A stretch of 50,267 nucleotides of DNA from Planctomycetaceae bacterium (lineage in GTDB: Bacteria; Planctomycetota; Planctomycetia; Pirellulales; Thermoguttaceae). Shown here piece by piece: positions 21,949 through 41,424 of the stretch. The notes beneath the pieces are model-generated. The model did no database searches. It saw only the letters and a list, made by a program, of their open reading frames with translations, and had not been told where the DNA came from. The DNA lies in the NCBI GenBank assembly GCA_031269105.1, contig JAISZO010000203.1, positions 1 to 50,267 on the forward strand. Reading direction: 5' to 3'. The translations under genes and the position numbers were made by a program. The first letter of the stretch is position 1, and each line of letters starts with the position of its first letter.

Positions 21949-23961
21949 CTAAAACGTTTGCTGAAAACCGAACGTGGCAGTTTGGTAACGCGAACGATTT
22001 TCGCCGAAATCAACGTTGTAATCGATATATATCATCCGGCTGCGGTCGTCGGAAAGATTGATTTGTAATCCGAGATTCGCCGAGACGAACCCTTTGCCCA
22101 AATCAACGCCGCGTACTTCAAACGCCGGACCGCCCCCAAGAAACGACGCCCGCGAATAATAAGTTTGATCGCCGCCGAGTAAATATTTGTAAAACGCTCC
22201 GCCGTACAAACTGCGCGCCGAATCGCCGTATTCCGCGTTCAATCCGACGCGTCCGATATGCCGCGCGATCTCCGTTTTGCCGAAAGAAAGTCCAATCGCG
22301 GAATTGCCGGTTTCGTTCGCTTCTTTCTGAGAAAGGTACAAGTAATCGTAACCGACCGCCGGTTTGAGAATCAAAAACGTTCCGGTATAAATCGGACGAA
22401 CAATTTCCGCGCTGAACGTTCCCGTGTTTCCCTTGAAATTCGAGCGGAACGTTTGCGGCGTATCAAAAGAAACGTTTCGCGTCATGTCGTAATATTGATA
22501 ACCGTAACCGCCCCAAACTTTCAATTCTAGCGAGTCCCAAACGCGCGACGCCAGATACGCTCCCGCGAGAAAATCGTCTAATTCTGCCTTGCCGCGCGGA
22601 TGGCGAAGTTCAGGACGACCGTAGCCAAGCATGACGCCAAACGCGGTTTTGCCGCCGATAAGCGTTTGATCAAAACCGCCGACAAATCCGTAACCGTCAA
22701 GCGAATATCCCGCCGCATTTCCGTCGCTATGAACTTTGTTGTTCGCATAATACGGACGCAACCAAACCGCGCGACGGCTCGGCGCGGCGGCTAATCGATA
22801 CTGCGGACCGAAAAAGATATGTCCGTTTTGCGAATCCCAACCGACATGATCAAACGCCATTCTGCCGGGAGATGCAAGCGGCAACGCCATTGTTTCCGCG
22901 CGGATTTCGCCGGAAAGATCGTTGTAAAGCGTTCGTAACTCCGCGTCGCTCATGTTCCATGTCCGCTGCATGAACGAATTTAATGTAGGCGGTATCGCCG
23001 AATGATGAATCGCGTCCAACGTTTGCCCAACGCTTCGTTCATTCCAAGTTTGCGTAAAATTGGCGTAAGGATTCTCGCTGGGCGCGAATGTCAGCGAAAT
23101 CGATTTCTCGTCGATCGCTTTTTCCAACGTAAGCGCTCCGTACCGCGTTTGCGAAAGCCGCGCGTTGGCAAAAGCGCCGTCGATTGTTCCGTCGCTTTTA
23201 AGAATTTCTACCGTGAGCGGCGCAGCGCCGTAATTTCCATATTCCGGCGTAATAAGCAACATAGCCTCGTTGAGCGCGATATTATTTTCCGCCGTAATTT
23301 TTCCCGCATCTCCAAACGCATTGAGCGTAATACCAAGCGTCGCCGTCTTATCGAAAGATAAAGTATTAATGCCGTTTATTCGCAAATCGCCATTTGAACC
23401 GACAACGTTTAATGTCGTATTTTTGCCGATAGAAACGCCTTGATCGGCGTTCAACGTTCCGGCGCTATTCACGATAGAATTGTTATCGAAAAAGATTTTA
23501 CCGCTTCCCGCGTCCAAAAGCGTATCTTTCGATTGCATTAAATAAGCGTTATCGAAAACCGCCGCGCCGTTGAAAAGAATTTGACCGTAATTCGTCATCT
23601 CAATTTTTCCGCCGCCGGTAACGCCGAGAACGCCGGTTCCGTCAGACGTAAGAGACAACGCGGAATCAGCGTTGACTAACAATGTCGAACCGTTCCCCGT
23701 AACGAGCAACGTTCCTCGTCCGTCGGAATCTTGACCAAGAACAACGCCGTCCGCTTGAATCTTTTCTCCGTCGGCGATCAACTTAATTTCTTCCTCCGTA
23801 TTGCCGATAACAAGTTCGCCGTTCTCGGAACCCAAATTGATATTGATCTGCGCGTAAATAGCGAAATCCGTCAAAACCGTAGATAAAAATAAAACGTAAA
23901 AAATATTCCGAAATTGCTTCAATCTGACGACAGAAAAACTCAAATTTTGTGGGAAAGTCAT
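21949..23961 (-). CDS. Autotransporter-like outer membrane protein
   Basis: 670 residues. A signal peptide (residues ~20-38, ending IYAQ) is followed by a short beta-helical passenger (~40-300) with pertactin-type strands such as GTGVLGVTGGGKIEMTNYGQ. A linker follows, then a C-terminal beta-barrel of ~270 residues that ends in Phe (GFQQTF), as autotransporter barrels require. The barrel contains the alternating aromatic strands typical of the family (ELKVWGGYGYQYYDM). It would insert in the outer membrane and show the passenger outside. It is related, mostly in the barrel, to the larger protein at 38032-41424. The start at 23961 has no clear ribosome binding site. Passenger function unknown. 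Confidence 0.85.
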   Translation of the reverse strand: MTFPQNLSFSVVRLKQFRNIFYVLFLSTVLTDFAIYAQININLGSENGELVIGNTEEEIKLIADGEKIQADGVVLGQDSDGRGTLLVTGNGSTLLVNADSALSLTSDGTGVLGVTGGGKIEMTNYGQILFNGAAVFDNAYLMQSKDTLLDAGSGKIFFDNNSIVNSAGTLNADQGVSIGKNTTLNVVGSNGDLRINGINTLSFDKTATLGITLNAFGDAGKITAENNIALNEAMLLITPEYGNYGAAPLTVEILKSDGTIDGAFANARLSQTRYGALTLEKAIDEKSISLTFAPSENPYANFTQTWNERSVGQTLDAIHHSAIPPTLNSFMQRTWNMSDAELRTLYNDLSGEIRAETMALPLASPGRMAFDHVGWDSQNGHIFFGPQYRLAAAPSRRAVWLRPYYANNKVHSDGNAAGYSLDGYGFVGGFDQTLIGGKTAFGVMLGYGRPELRHPRGKAELDDFLAGAYLASRVWDSLELKVWGGYGYQYYDMTRNVSFDTPQTFRSNFKGNTGTFSAEIVRPIYTGTFLILKPAVGYDYLYLSQKEANETGNSAIGLSFGKTEIARHIGRVGLNAEYGDSARSLYGGAFYKYLLGGDQTYYSRASFLGGGPAFEVRGVDLGKGFVSANLGLQINLSDDRSRMIYIDYNVDFGENRSRYQTATFGFQQTF

Positions 23962-37177: not shown

Positions 37178-37933
37178 AATTCGTGAATTTGACGCCTATA
37201 TCGTAATGAAAATGAAATTTACAACGAATGTTTATTTATTATCCAATTTTACTCATTGACGTCAACACGTTCACCACGAAGTCGCGAAGAAGCACGAAGG
37301 AAGCACGAAGTTTTTTTAAGTGGGCAAATGATTGTTTTCATCACAGAGCCAAAAATTCCGCATAAAATTCCCCTCCGTTGAAGCGGCGCAGCCCTACAAA
37401 ACGTGAGTTCAACACGATTTCGTCCCAACAAGGCAATGAGAATAAAATATTGGTAGCCCCGCGCGTAAGCAAGGGGTTTCGGTTGGGAATGTTACCCCCG
37501 TCGCTTACCGCTCACGGGTTGCCAAGCGGAAATAAAATGAAACGCAATACCCGTTTGAACACCCTACCTGTAAAGACGAAATGATGCATAACCTACGGCA
37601 AAACGTTTAAATTACTTATATTGCCATTAATCACGGAAATTTTAATCGGCGGTTTATTCACGAACAGTTATACGCTCACCAATCGTTGTAATAATCAAAT
37701 TCTAATACTTCGGCGAAAAAAAATAATAGAATTTTAAAATAATGTTGCCTCTGATTGCATAAAAACCGTTTCGATGGACGATATAAAAATCAGGAATTTT
37801 TACCGAAAGGCAAGCGCAAAAATTACGAAATTGTAATAACGTCCTTCTATTCCGGTAAAATTGCGGGAGAATAAGCGTTATTCCCCGTAAGTAAGAGCGA
37901 CAAGATTTTCACAAAGACTCAGGAGGAGCTAGC
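37178..37933. other. Repeat-rich spacer upstream of the second autotransporter
   Basis: No supported gene. 37270-37330 carries the CACCACGAAG-type dispersed repeat; 37327-37380 a partial folded repeat; 37440-37585 the left direct repeat of the autotransporter cassette. 37600-37920 is AT-rich and is the presumed promoter region, with the ribosome binding site AGGAGGAG at its end (37921-37928). Confidence 0.6.
37440..37585 (+). repeat. Left direct repeat flanking the autotransporter cassette
   Basis: GAATAAAATATTGG, then AGCCCCGCGCGTAAGCAAGG and GTTTCGGTTGGGAATGTT, then after a short gap ATGAAACGCAATACCCGTTT and GAACACCCTACC. The same blocks occur in the same order and orientation at 41573-41812. 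Confidence 0.8.
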
Positions 37934-37936
37934 ATG
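37921..37936 (+). promoter_or_regulatory. Strong ribosome binding site and ATG of the phase-variable autotransporter
   Basis: AGGAGGAG at 37921-37928 and ATG at 37934-37936. From this ATG the first codons read MENHPSFLPPPP and then, because of the 12-C run, ALVCVF and a stop at 37988-37990. The main body of the autotransporter lies in the +1 shifted frame. This is the only start site with a real binding site in the region. Confidence 0.8.
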
Positions 37937-37957
37937 GAAAATCACCCAAGTTTTTTA

Positions 37958-37969
37958 CCCCCCCCCCCC
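37958..37969. repeat. Poly-C tract (12 C), putative phase-variation switch
   Basis: Twelve consecutive C residues, eight codons after the ATG at 37934. With 12 C the start frame ends after 18 codons. With 13 or 10 C it would run into the ORF at 38032 and add a basic N-region (GKRVG) to the hydrophobic core LFLASITTATC, making a normal signal peptide. Confidence 0.85.
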
Positions 37970-38031
37970 GCACTAGTCTGTGTATTTTAACAGGCAAGCG
38001 AGATTTCAACTCCTTTGGGAAAAGGGTTGGA

Positions 38032-41000
38032 TTGTTTCTGGCGTCAATCACGACGGCAACCTGTCTCTTTCAGGTTCCCGCAACTCATGCCGAAGATTGG
38101 GATTACGCCGCATCGACAACGATCAGTTCCGACGCCGAATATTCCAATATCAAAAACTTCAACGGCGGAGATACGCTCAATATTACCGTGAAAAACGGTC
38201 AGGGAGCAAATCACGTGAATGATGAGCATGGAGGTTGGTTTGACAGGGACGTTACATTCGGAACAACGAATTCGTCTCCCAATATTTTCGACGCCAACAA
38301 TAACCGGGTTAATCCTGACAACATCAAGCACGTCAAGATTGATTTACAAGCTCAAGATCATGAGACGAGTTATACCTATTTGGATGAGGGCACTTATTTA
38401 ATTTTCGGCGAAAAAACTTCCGGCAACACAAAAGCCGGTTCGGCTTCGTGGACGGTCAAAGAGGGCGATACTTTTCACGTTATAAATAGTATCGTCGGCA
38501 ATCCGGGAGAATCCATATTGCAATTCGGCGGCAATAGCGACTATAACGAGGCCGGCGAGTATTACGGTAACGGCGGAGACGGTACGTTCACGGTGAACGG
38601 CGGAAACGTCAAGTTCACAGAAGGCACAGAGTTGGCGCTTGGCGGTTGGGGTAAAACCGGCGGAAACGGTACGTTCACGATGACCGGAGGAGATGTCGAT
38701 TTTTTGGATAGTTATTTGGGTCTCGGTGGAACCGGTAACTATGATTATGATCTCAATAAATCCAACGATGGTGTAGGCAGATTTGATTTGAGTGGCGGAA
38801 CGTTCAAAATATCTGGAGGCATATACGCCTCTAGCAATAGCAATAGCGTTCTCAACCTGACCGGCGGGAACTTAATACTCAAAAGTGAGTATAATGGTGA
38901 GTGTTGGTATGGCGGTGATGTTGGCGTGTATGAGGGCACAATCAATATTGGCGCCAACGCCAAAGTAACATTGGAAGGAGCGAGACATTACGTTGACGCA
39001 AACCAAATCAATATCGCAAAAGGAAGTACGTTTGCGTTTGACGTTTCGGGTCTTACTTCAAACGATACGGACGCCGCCGTAAATTTGAGAGCCTCTCAGT
39101 CCGGCGAGCTTGGAAAATTTAACGTCGAGATACTGAATGCCAAAGCCGAAGATTTTATAAGCGGCAGTGCAAACACCTATAACTTAATCAATGCTCCCGG
39201 CGTCTATTTCACTTTAGGTAGTTTTGACGTCATCGTAAACGACAGAGAAGGTTTTAGGTATGACGTCGACGCTTCAATTATAGGACAGGACTCGGTAAAA
39301 GTTGCAATTAAATACGACTCCGGCAATATTGACAACAATAATAGAGTTGCCGAGTGGAATTCGAACGAGGCGAATGCTTCGTGGAGCGGAAACGCCTGGG
39401 ATGTGACTGATAGTGACTCGCACCATTTCAAAAACGACGACCAGGTTAAATTTAAAAGCGGCGCCGCCAATCAAAACAAAAACATTACCGTAAGTCAAAA
39501 CGGCGTTACGGTTGCAAGACTATCAACATCAGATCCGGCGATGTTGGTTGACAGTTCCGCCAATTACACGTTTGAAGGCGGTAGTATTACCAGTACATTA
39601 GGCGACTTTAAAAAAGCCGGCTCCGGAACATTAACCATTAAAAACGAGCTTAATTTTACCGGTAAGGAAGTCGATTTGACGGCGGGCAATACGGTTGTTG
39701 ACGGAAAGATCACCGCAGATAACGTGATAGTTGACAGCGGCGCAACTCTTTCCGGCGGTAAGGGCGAGATTGCGGTGATTGTCGGCAATTTGACGTTCAA
39801 CGACGGATCGTTCCATCGCCCCGGTCATTCGCCCGGAACTTTTACCGTCGATGGAGATATCAACTACAACGCCGGATCAAAGGTCTATCTTGATTTCGGA
39901 AAAACTGCCGATTTCGTTCAGACAATCAATTCCGGCAATATCAAATTCGCTTCCGATGCCGTCGGCAAAGTCAAAGTTATTGTCGGCAACAGCGGTGATC
40001 TTACCGTGAATGATAGCGAGGAAAAGCACACGGTCTTTCAAGCGGGCGGAACAATTCAACTCGGCGCTCAAGACATTAATGACAACACTTGGGTTGCTGC
40101 TGCTGATAACACGATTACCATTGACGACTCCGCCAGCGGCGGTAGCGGCGACCATAAGATCGTATTTTCCGGCGTCTCTGGAATTGAACTTCAACAAGCG
40201 AAAGTGATTAACTCAAAACAACTTGAGTTGACTGCAATGGGAACGATTGTTCCGTTACCTTCCGATATTACGCCGAATCAATTGGCGTTTTTCAATTCTC
40301 TTGACGAGGTGAGAGATTTGGGAACGTTTGCGAATTATCTGAAAGCGTCTCTTTGGGAAAGCGGTACGGTCGATAAGGCGGCTCTTGAAGCGGCGTTGCC
40401 GACCGTCAATTCCGCGTTATTTGTCGCTTCGCAGCGGAATGTCGTTTCCGCCAACCGTTCGATTTATAACCGTTTGCATTTCCTTCAAGACGCCCAACCG
40501 CGTCTCGGCGGATTCGCGAATGGAGAAACGATTTTTCGCGGTCAAAACAGCGCTTGCGACCCGTGCGGTTCGGTTTCCGATCCTCGCAATTCGAGGAACA
40601 GTTTAACCGCCAACGCATGGTTTGAAGGTTTCGGCGACTTCCTGCGACAATCCAATACGGGAACGTTGCAAGGTTATCGATCCAATGTCGGCGGATTCAA
40701 TCTCGGTGTTGATCAACGAATCAATCGGTATACGATTTTAGGAATCGGTTTCGGCGGCGCTTATGCGGACATGAAAACAAACGATCATTCCCAATGGGGC
40801 GACGTGGAACAGTATATTTTCTCCCTTTACGGTTCGCGTTCGTGGGATAACTGGACATTTTCTTTTGCGGGCGGTTACGCCTACAGCGATTACGATTTGA
40901 CTCGTCACCCCGTCGGCGTGGAAATCCGCAGCAACCATAACGGCGATCAGTATTTTGCGTCTTTTGAATTGGCGCAGAAATTACGATTCGCAAAATACGA

Positions 41001-41424
41001 CTTGACTCCGTTCTACGCTCTTGACTTCGTCCGTCTGGAAGAAGAAGGATACGATGAATATACGACCGGAAGCAACGCGCTTGCGTCAAGTATCGACGCG
41101 CAAAATACCAATTCGTATTTGCAGACAATCGGCGTCAAGTTTGGTCGTTCGAGAAGATGGCATGGTTGGATCGTCAATCCTTCCGTCACCGCCGGTTGGG
41201 TTCACGATTACGGCGCCGGAAATATTTACACAACCGCGCAATACGCGGGAGGAAGCCGATTCACGATCAAAGGCGCCGCAATCAATAAAAATCGCGGTTT
41301 GATCGGAGCAAATCTGAGTATCGCGACAAGTCCGAATTTGACAATTTTCGGCGGCTATAACGGAGAATTTGCCGGTCATTTCCAGGTTCAAACCGCTCAA
41401 GCCGGATTGAATTACGCATTCTGA
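38032..41424 (+). CDS. Large autotransporter (second), start frame-shifted by a poly-C tract
   Basis: 1130 codons from a TTG at 38032 as the sequence stands; about 1163 residues if read from the ATG at 37934 with 10 or 13 C. Without the upstream part the protein lacks a proper basic signal-peptide n-region; with it, KRVGLFLASITTATCLFQ ending ATHA gives a good one. The passenger is a beta-helix rich in Gly/Asn repeats (GNGTFTMTGGDVDF and related units) with autotransporter-associated strand repeats near GSGTLTIKNELNFTG. The last ~270 residues form a 12-strand barrel ending in Phe (GLNYAF), related to the barrel at 21949-23961. A terminator follows. It would display a long passenger on the cell surface. 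Function of the passenger is unknown; adhesion is the usual role. Confidence 0.88.
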   Translation: MFLASITTATCLFQVPATHAEDWDYAASTTISSDAEYSNIKNFNGGDTLNITVKNGQGANHVNDEHGGWFDRDVTFGTTNSSPNIFDANNNRVNPDNIKHVKIDLQAQDHETSYTYLDEGTYLIFGEKTSGNTKAGSASWTVKEGDTFHVINSIVGNPGESILQFGGNSDYNEAGEYYGNGGDGTFTVNGGNVKFTEGTELALGGWGKTGGNGTFTMTGGDVDFLDSYLGLGGTGNYDYDLNKSNDGVGRFDLSGGTFKISGGIYASSNSNSVLNLTGGNLILKSEYNGECWYGGDVGVYEGTINIGANAKVTLEGARHYVDANQINIAKGSTFAFDVSGLTSNDTDAAVNLRASQSGELGKFNVEILNAKAEDFISGSANTYNLINAPGVYFTLGSFDVIVNDREGFRYDVDASIIGQDSVKVAIKYDSGNIDNNNRVAEWNSNEANASWSGNAWDVTDSDSHHFKNDDQVKFKSGAANQNKNITVSQNGVTVARLSTSDPAMLVDSSANYTFEGGSITSTLGDFKKAGSGTLTIKNELNFTGKEVDLTAGNTVVDGKITADNVIVDSGATLSGGKGEIAVIVGNLTFNDGSFHRPGHSPGTFTVDGDINYNAGSKVYLDFGKTADFVQTINSGNIKFASDAVGKVKVIVGNSGDLTVNDSEEKHTVFQAGGTIQLGAQDINDNTWVAAADNTITIDDSASGGSGDHKIVFSGVSGIELQQAKVINSKQLELTAMGTIVPLPSDITPNQLAFFNSLDEVRDLGTFANYLKASLWESGTVDKAALEAALPTVNSALFVASQRNVVSANRSIYNRLHFLQDAQPRLGGFANGETIFRGQNSACDPCGSVSDPRNSRNSLTANAWFEGFGDFLRQSNTGTLQGYRSNVGGFNLGVDQRINRYTILGIGFGGAYADMKTNDHSQWGDVEQYIFSLYGSRSWDNWTFSFAGGYAYSDYDLTRHPVGVEIRSNHNGDQYFASFELAQKLRFAKYDLTPFYALDFVRLEEEGYDEYTTGSNALASSIDAQNTNSYLQTIGVKFGRSRRWHGWIVNPSVTAGWVHDYGAGNIYTTAQYAGGSRFTIKGAAINKNRGLIGANLSIATSPNLTIFGGYNGEFAGHFQVQTAQAGLNYAF

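Follow-up and report, generated by a model that had tools for sequence, protein, structure and literature searches.

Why should a large autotransporter gene in this stretch of DNA (the window, 50,267 nucleotides in all) be preceded by a good ribosome binding site and start codon that, at the assembled length of an intervening run of C, lead into a frame of only 18 codons? We conclude, from sequence comparison, that the run is very probably a phase-variation switch (a simple-sequence contingency locus), and that it would be one of a genome-wide set placed before exported proteins.

The poly-C tract and its reading frames

The ribosome binding site AGGAGGAG (37921–37928; + strand, as are all features of this gene) is followed by the only well-placed ATG (37934–37936), which the ON and OFF products would share. 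The tract of 12 C (37958–37969) starts 21 bases past that codon and is directly followed by GCACTAGTCTGTGTATTTTAACAGG. Matches to a run of nine C number four in the window against 0.04 expected, a count reached in none of 100 shuffles, and no other G/C run of at least 7 bases was found in the whole window. At 12 C, the frame of ATG 37934 has 18 codons and stops at 37988–37990 (37934–37990 with the stop codon), whereas by frame arithmetic it is joined, at 10, 13 or 16 C, to the autotransporter frame 3' of the tract (37970–41424) and runs for 1162–1164 codons. At 8, 9, 11, 14 or 15 C it closes after 12–19 codons; the stop comes even earlier at 11 or 14 C, after 13–14 codons, at a TAG (37974–37976). 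Together with the TAA used at 12 C, this means that both OFF frames close directly past the tract.

The long frame itself (1,163 codons) stays open from 37933 to 41424, and the sole listed in-frame start after the tract is a TTG (38032–38034) in weak context: it has no strong ribosome site by inspection, it is absent at that place in the more distant of two orthologs (see below), and starting there would deprive the signal peptide of its basic portion. As judged by inspection, the putative signal peptide GKRVGLFLASITTATCLFQVPATHA occurs solely in the ON frame. A sequence-only reading of this DNA had set out the same arrangement, i.e., a ribosome site and ATG before 12 C, an 18-codon frame at that length, an autotransporter frame open through the tract with TTG 38032 as its only start (giving a signal peptide without basic residues), and a join to the ATG at 10 or 13 C; each of these points is borne out by the sequence and the frame arithmetic.

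At the other end of the gene, Pfam detects a complete C-terminal autotransporter beta-domain (PF03797, 40615–41361; E 3.7e-46, full profile covered), and it gave just this domain above cut-off, with no Pmp repeat or middle domain in the window protein. The genome has five autotransporter genes, and the tract is seen only at the one that starts at 37934; a second beta-domain gene in the window (22042–22767, − strand) has no G/C run of at least 7 bases nearby. The palindrome GAATAAGCGTTATTC (37869–37883), which lies 5' of the ribosome site and is kept in one ortholog, may be an operator or form a 5' hairpin. For TGTTAAAAT, extended −10 promoter and dif-like readings were weighed and set aside.

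Slippage at G/C tracts during replication is established in Neisseria, Campylobacter and Chlamydia, and it is by analogy with these tracts that we infer slippage in living cells, ON/OFF switching of the protein, and its display at the surface. During replication, the 12-base C run would lose or gain single bases through slipped-strand mispairing. At 10 or 13 C, a ribosome that starts at ATG 37934 would translate a proline-rich basic leader, then the signal peptide and the autotransporter, and the product would then be exported to the outer membrane for putative surface display; at 11, 12 or 14 C, the ribosome would hit the TAG or TAA directly past the tract. Translation would be ON at one length in three. 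The assembled consensus at the window tract is OFF.

Two orthologs, both from metagenome assemblies named Planctomycetaceae, bear on this proposal (JAIRYX010000236.1, best segment 59% identical; JAIRWK010000291.1, 54%). Both retain a ribosome site (conserved in L155, AAGGAG in L156), an ATG 21–22 bases 5' of the tract, the tract itself, and, 3' of it, TATTTTAAC (37983–37991 in the window), which is invariant in the three orthologs and contains a TTAAC motif as well as the TAA that ends the 12-C frame; the bases around these retained elements have diverged in both. Over the 65 bases past the tract, the differences between the window and L155 are few in number, at 8, 4 and 9 for the three codon positions. 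A run without function would hardly remain uninterrupted at such divergence. The orthologs have 12 and 17 C, the first needing +1 (or −2) and the second −1 (or +2) for ON, and thus all three genes are OFF in consensus (C12, C12, C17). Counting C in related genomes had been proposed in the sequence-only reading, for which one and the same in-frame tract throughout would have spoken against a switch; the lengths instead differ, and no in-frame length is shared. Both ortholog assemblies carry the prefix Gsp477, and a published Gsp477 genome is from the lower termite Glyptotermes (PMC11707648).

Tracts across the genome and in related genera

In its 4.2 Mb and 439 contigs, the window's genome contains 66 C or G runs of at least 9 bases; 61 are of at least 10, against about one expected from a first-order Markov model built from the window. 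Run lengths are bimodal in the 590 kb examined for this purpose: the counts for lengths 4 to 8 are 771, 81, 35, 4 and 1, after which they climb again, to a maximum of 32 at length 12. Most of the runs consist, on the coding strand, of 9–16 G between the ribosome site with its ATG and the prepilin signal FTLVELLVVIAIIG of DUF1559 genes. At least 44 DUF1559 copies show this signal (about 52 if copies cut at contig ends are included), and Pfam matched PF07596 and N_methyl in two ON copies. Among the 41 copies with a clear start, 10 are ON, 24 need +1 and 7 need −1, with states taken from the frame of the prepilin motif because longest-frame calls mislabelled some; three copies flagged as having a broken start codon frame are cases in which the ribosome-site rule missed the start. 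In each of the 41 copies, no stop interrupts the leader in the ON frame. For most of the main DUF1559 family, 12 G gives OFF and 13 G gives ON. Tract length differs in 11 of 16 pairs of near-identical paralogs (at least 95% identity), for example 13 versus 12 in a pair that is 98.8% identical. Furthermore, a polysaccharide export gene (Poly_export, PF02563; C356, L104:3191–4525, + strand) has G11 directly past its start and would be ON at 12, so surface polysaccharide may be switched too.

Long poly-G or poly-C stretches were also noted at contig ends (L085:1–75 read from the end, L103:1–64, the end of L065, and many in G021 and G022). These look like two-colour sequencing artefacts, which inflate plain tract counts, and we therefore judged the spread of the tracts by patterns anchored on the ribosome site and ATG. 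The pattern of ribosome site, ATG and poly-C within 33 bases (counts include overlapping matches) is found in several genera of the same family, as is its poly-G version, and the reversed-pattern controls are near zero for both. The 397 genomes sampled across the class gave scattered matches only, mostly one or two per genome, which assigns the multi-copy phenomenon to this family; within it, some genera have multi-copy tracts (g1, g27, g32, g33, g40 and a few others) and g2–g5 do not.

Outside the window's genome, 77 tract genes of the family divide into 16 ON, 38 that need +1 and 23 that need −1; we assigned these starts and states by rule (ATG plus a GGAG-like site; the longest or motif-bearing frame), some single calls will be wrong (L189/L276, for example, is OFF from its ATG and ON from a TTG), and all tract lengths are metagenome consensus values that could be off by one. 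Both C runs and G runs serve as the coding-strand tract. The frames past the tract mostly open with a hydrophobic segment that is signal-peptide-like by inspection, and the sampled products have PEP-CTERM anchors, passenger-associated repeats, a LamG domain or the DUF1559 prepilin signal. Such a 5' position is held by 22 of the first 30 tracts listed for G051, which were unselected for start codon. In one region of G051 (C59, L192:7950), the tract is faced by a ribosome site and ATG on both strands, so that one run might act on two frames, divergent or overlapping.

These observations include three features of a contingency locus: a 5' homopolymer far above chance, a one-unit change that swaps full-length and truncated frames, and a position that is kept while the length varies, both among the autotransporter orthologs and among paralogs (9–16). 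Given the kept position, the differing ortholog lengths, and dozens of further examples among surface genes of this genome and of related genera, the ON/OFF switch first suggested by the sequence-only reading gains support.

A different proposal is that programmed ribosomal frameshifting or transcriptional slippage yields some full-length protein at every tract length, so that the gene is never fully OFF. Long homopolymers are indeed slippery, and the commonest length in the window's genome, 12, is an OFF length. However, the fixed frame offset expected among homologs of a programmed frameshifting gene was not seen: offsets of 0, +1 and −1 are all present, and the differing offsets of the autotransporter orthologs argue against such a mechanism. 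Moreover, C and G runs are both used here, whereas most sites described for transcriptional slippage are runs of A/T (PMC3711429). We consider this proposal improbable. It is very unlikely that we are looking at decayed pseudogenes, tract and neighbours alike, or that sequencing or assembly errors have distorted the counts of a gene that is in truth always ON. The sequence is a metagenome assembly consensus, and some contig ends (L085, L103) do show poly-G artefacts, but the frames past the tract are intact over 320–1,300 codons in many genes, the tract and its position recur across independent assemblies and genera, and OFF occurs in both directions, which a uniform miscount would not produce. 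We find it scarcely credible that the G/C runs are recombination anchors that shuffle 5' ends among paralogs (pilin-type antigenic variation) with frame effects secondary, since the near-identity of 5' ends around the tract in about 50 DUF1559 paralogs has to be set against the autotransporter and many other tract genes with unrelated leaders, and against OFF frames that close directly past the tract, which recombination does not require.

Returning to phase variation, one point against it is that ON copies fall below one in three, both in DUF1559 (10/41) and in the tract genes elsewhere in the family (16/77), and that none of the three autotransporter orthologs is ON in consensus; OFF may be favoured by selection, long runs may be under-called, or a rescue mechanism may be at work. 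The window's genome has both MutS and MutL. No MutS was found in the assemblies of G039 and G051, the most tract-rich genomes of g27 and g32 (58 and 129 tracts), and MutL was not above cut-off in those of three of the four g33 genomes (G054–G056); as these assemblies are incomplete, the absences are a lead only, to a possible link between mismatch-repair loss and tract number.

The TTAAC motif beside the tract

Most sampled tracts of related genera are accompanied by a short motif, which we counted with the C strand on top and within 20 bases of the C run. TTAAC lies 3' of the run in 33 of the 44 genes that have C on the coding strand, and on the same side in 30 of the 46 genes whose coding strand has G. 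None of the 90 has it on the mirror side, and shuffles gave about 1.2 per set and at most 6. Matches to the TTAAC pattern over whole genomes number 100 in G102 (114 tracts), 69 in G107 (79) and 35 in G094 (40), with reversed-pattern controls of 0–4 in these three genomes and at most 13 in any genome. The window autotransporter has the motif (37987–37991), and the DUF1559 families of its genome are mostly without it. Outside those DUF1559 families, what is conserved is thus the DNA and not the protein, irrespective of gene direction. The left flank of the C genes (ATTTTA, ATTCTA or ATTTCA 5' of the run) occurs in two reading frames. In C genes, TTAAC supplies the stop for one OFF frame; a stop-codon role suits this orientation but fails to explain TTAAC before the G run in the other, and we did not adopt it.

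It is this side-specific TTAAC that has the strongest claim to novelty. We tentatively entertain, as a possibility we would not yet favour, that the homopolymer belongs to a portable DNA element (a C run followed, within about 20 bases, by TTAAC). Such an element would work in both orientations and in more than one reading frame, would have spread to many surface genes of several genera, and would have a dedicated factor that recognises or maintains it; it would be a purpose-built phase-switch cassette as opposed to a run that arose separately in each gene. The side-specificity makes the spread of contingency tracts as cassettes a testable idea.

Relation to described contingency loci

Homopolymer phase variation is best known from human and animal pathogens. 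The case closest to ours among those described comes from Chlamydia, which belongs with the planctomycetes to the same superphylum (PVC): it is the PmpG group of Pmp autotransporters, in which poly-G/poly-C tracts vary in length and cause frameshifts in some copies (PMC6740158). The likeness extends to surface autotransporters with variable G/C tracts and, in the single-copy C. trachomatis PmpG group, to a tract close to the start of the gene. The variable PmpG group, by contrast, has its tracts far inside the gene and in few genes of one family (PMC6740158), whereas here the tract is directly past the start codon, dozens of genes from several families have one, and the window protein has PF03797 only. 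The poly-G/poly-C contingency loci of Neisseria and Campylobacter also combine many G/C tracts per genome with translational ON/OFF control of surface structures (PMC5084427, PMC8355987), a control that is putative here; the present loci differ in phylum and gene families, and in having TTAAC on a fixed side of most sampled related-genera tracts.

The sequence-only reading knew of no planctomycete case, and our search of the titles and abstracts of open-licence papers likewise found no report of phase variation, contingency loci or slipped-strand mispairing in Planctomycetota, so that one elsewhere is possible; the open-licence papers found to mention DUF1559 show none in title or abstract. 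What would be new, then, is homopolymer phase variation in a new phylum, on a large scale and with a side-specific motif. These uncultured and little-studied planctomycetes have dozens to more than 100 G/C tracts per genome, and random on/off switching probably affects large parts of their cell surface. Two relatives come from a termite-gut sample series, and, if the reading is true, gut symbionts randomly diversify their surface (against phages, host or competitors). It would also follow that automatic annotation reports such genes as broken or fails to find their starts, and that some of the many unexplained DUF1559 and PEP-CTERM genes form a switchable repertoire.

Finally, the tracts resemble the poly-A tract of Listeria inlA, and 5' homopolymers generally, in lying near the 5' end and in giving a very short out-of-frame product (PMC2831843). 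They are unlike such A/T tracts in base composition: no A/T run of at least 11 bases was found in the 590 kb examined, where G/C runs of 9–16 are kept. Just two A/T runs of at least 10 bases occur in the same 590 kb, though the genome is slightly A/T rich.
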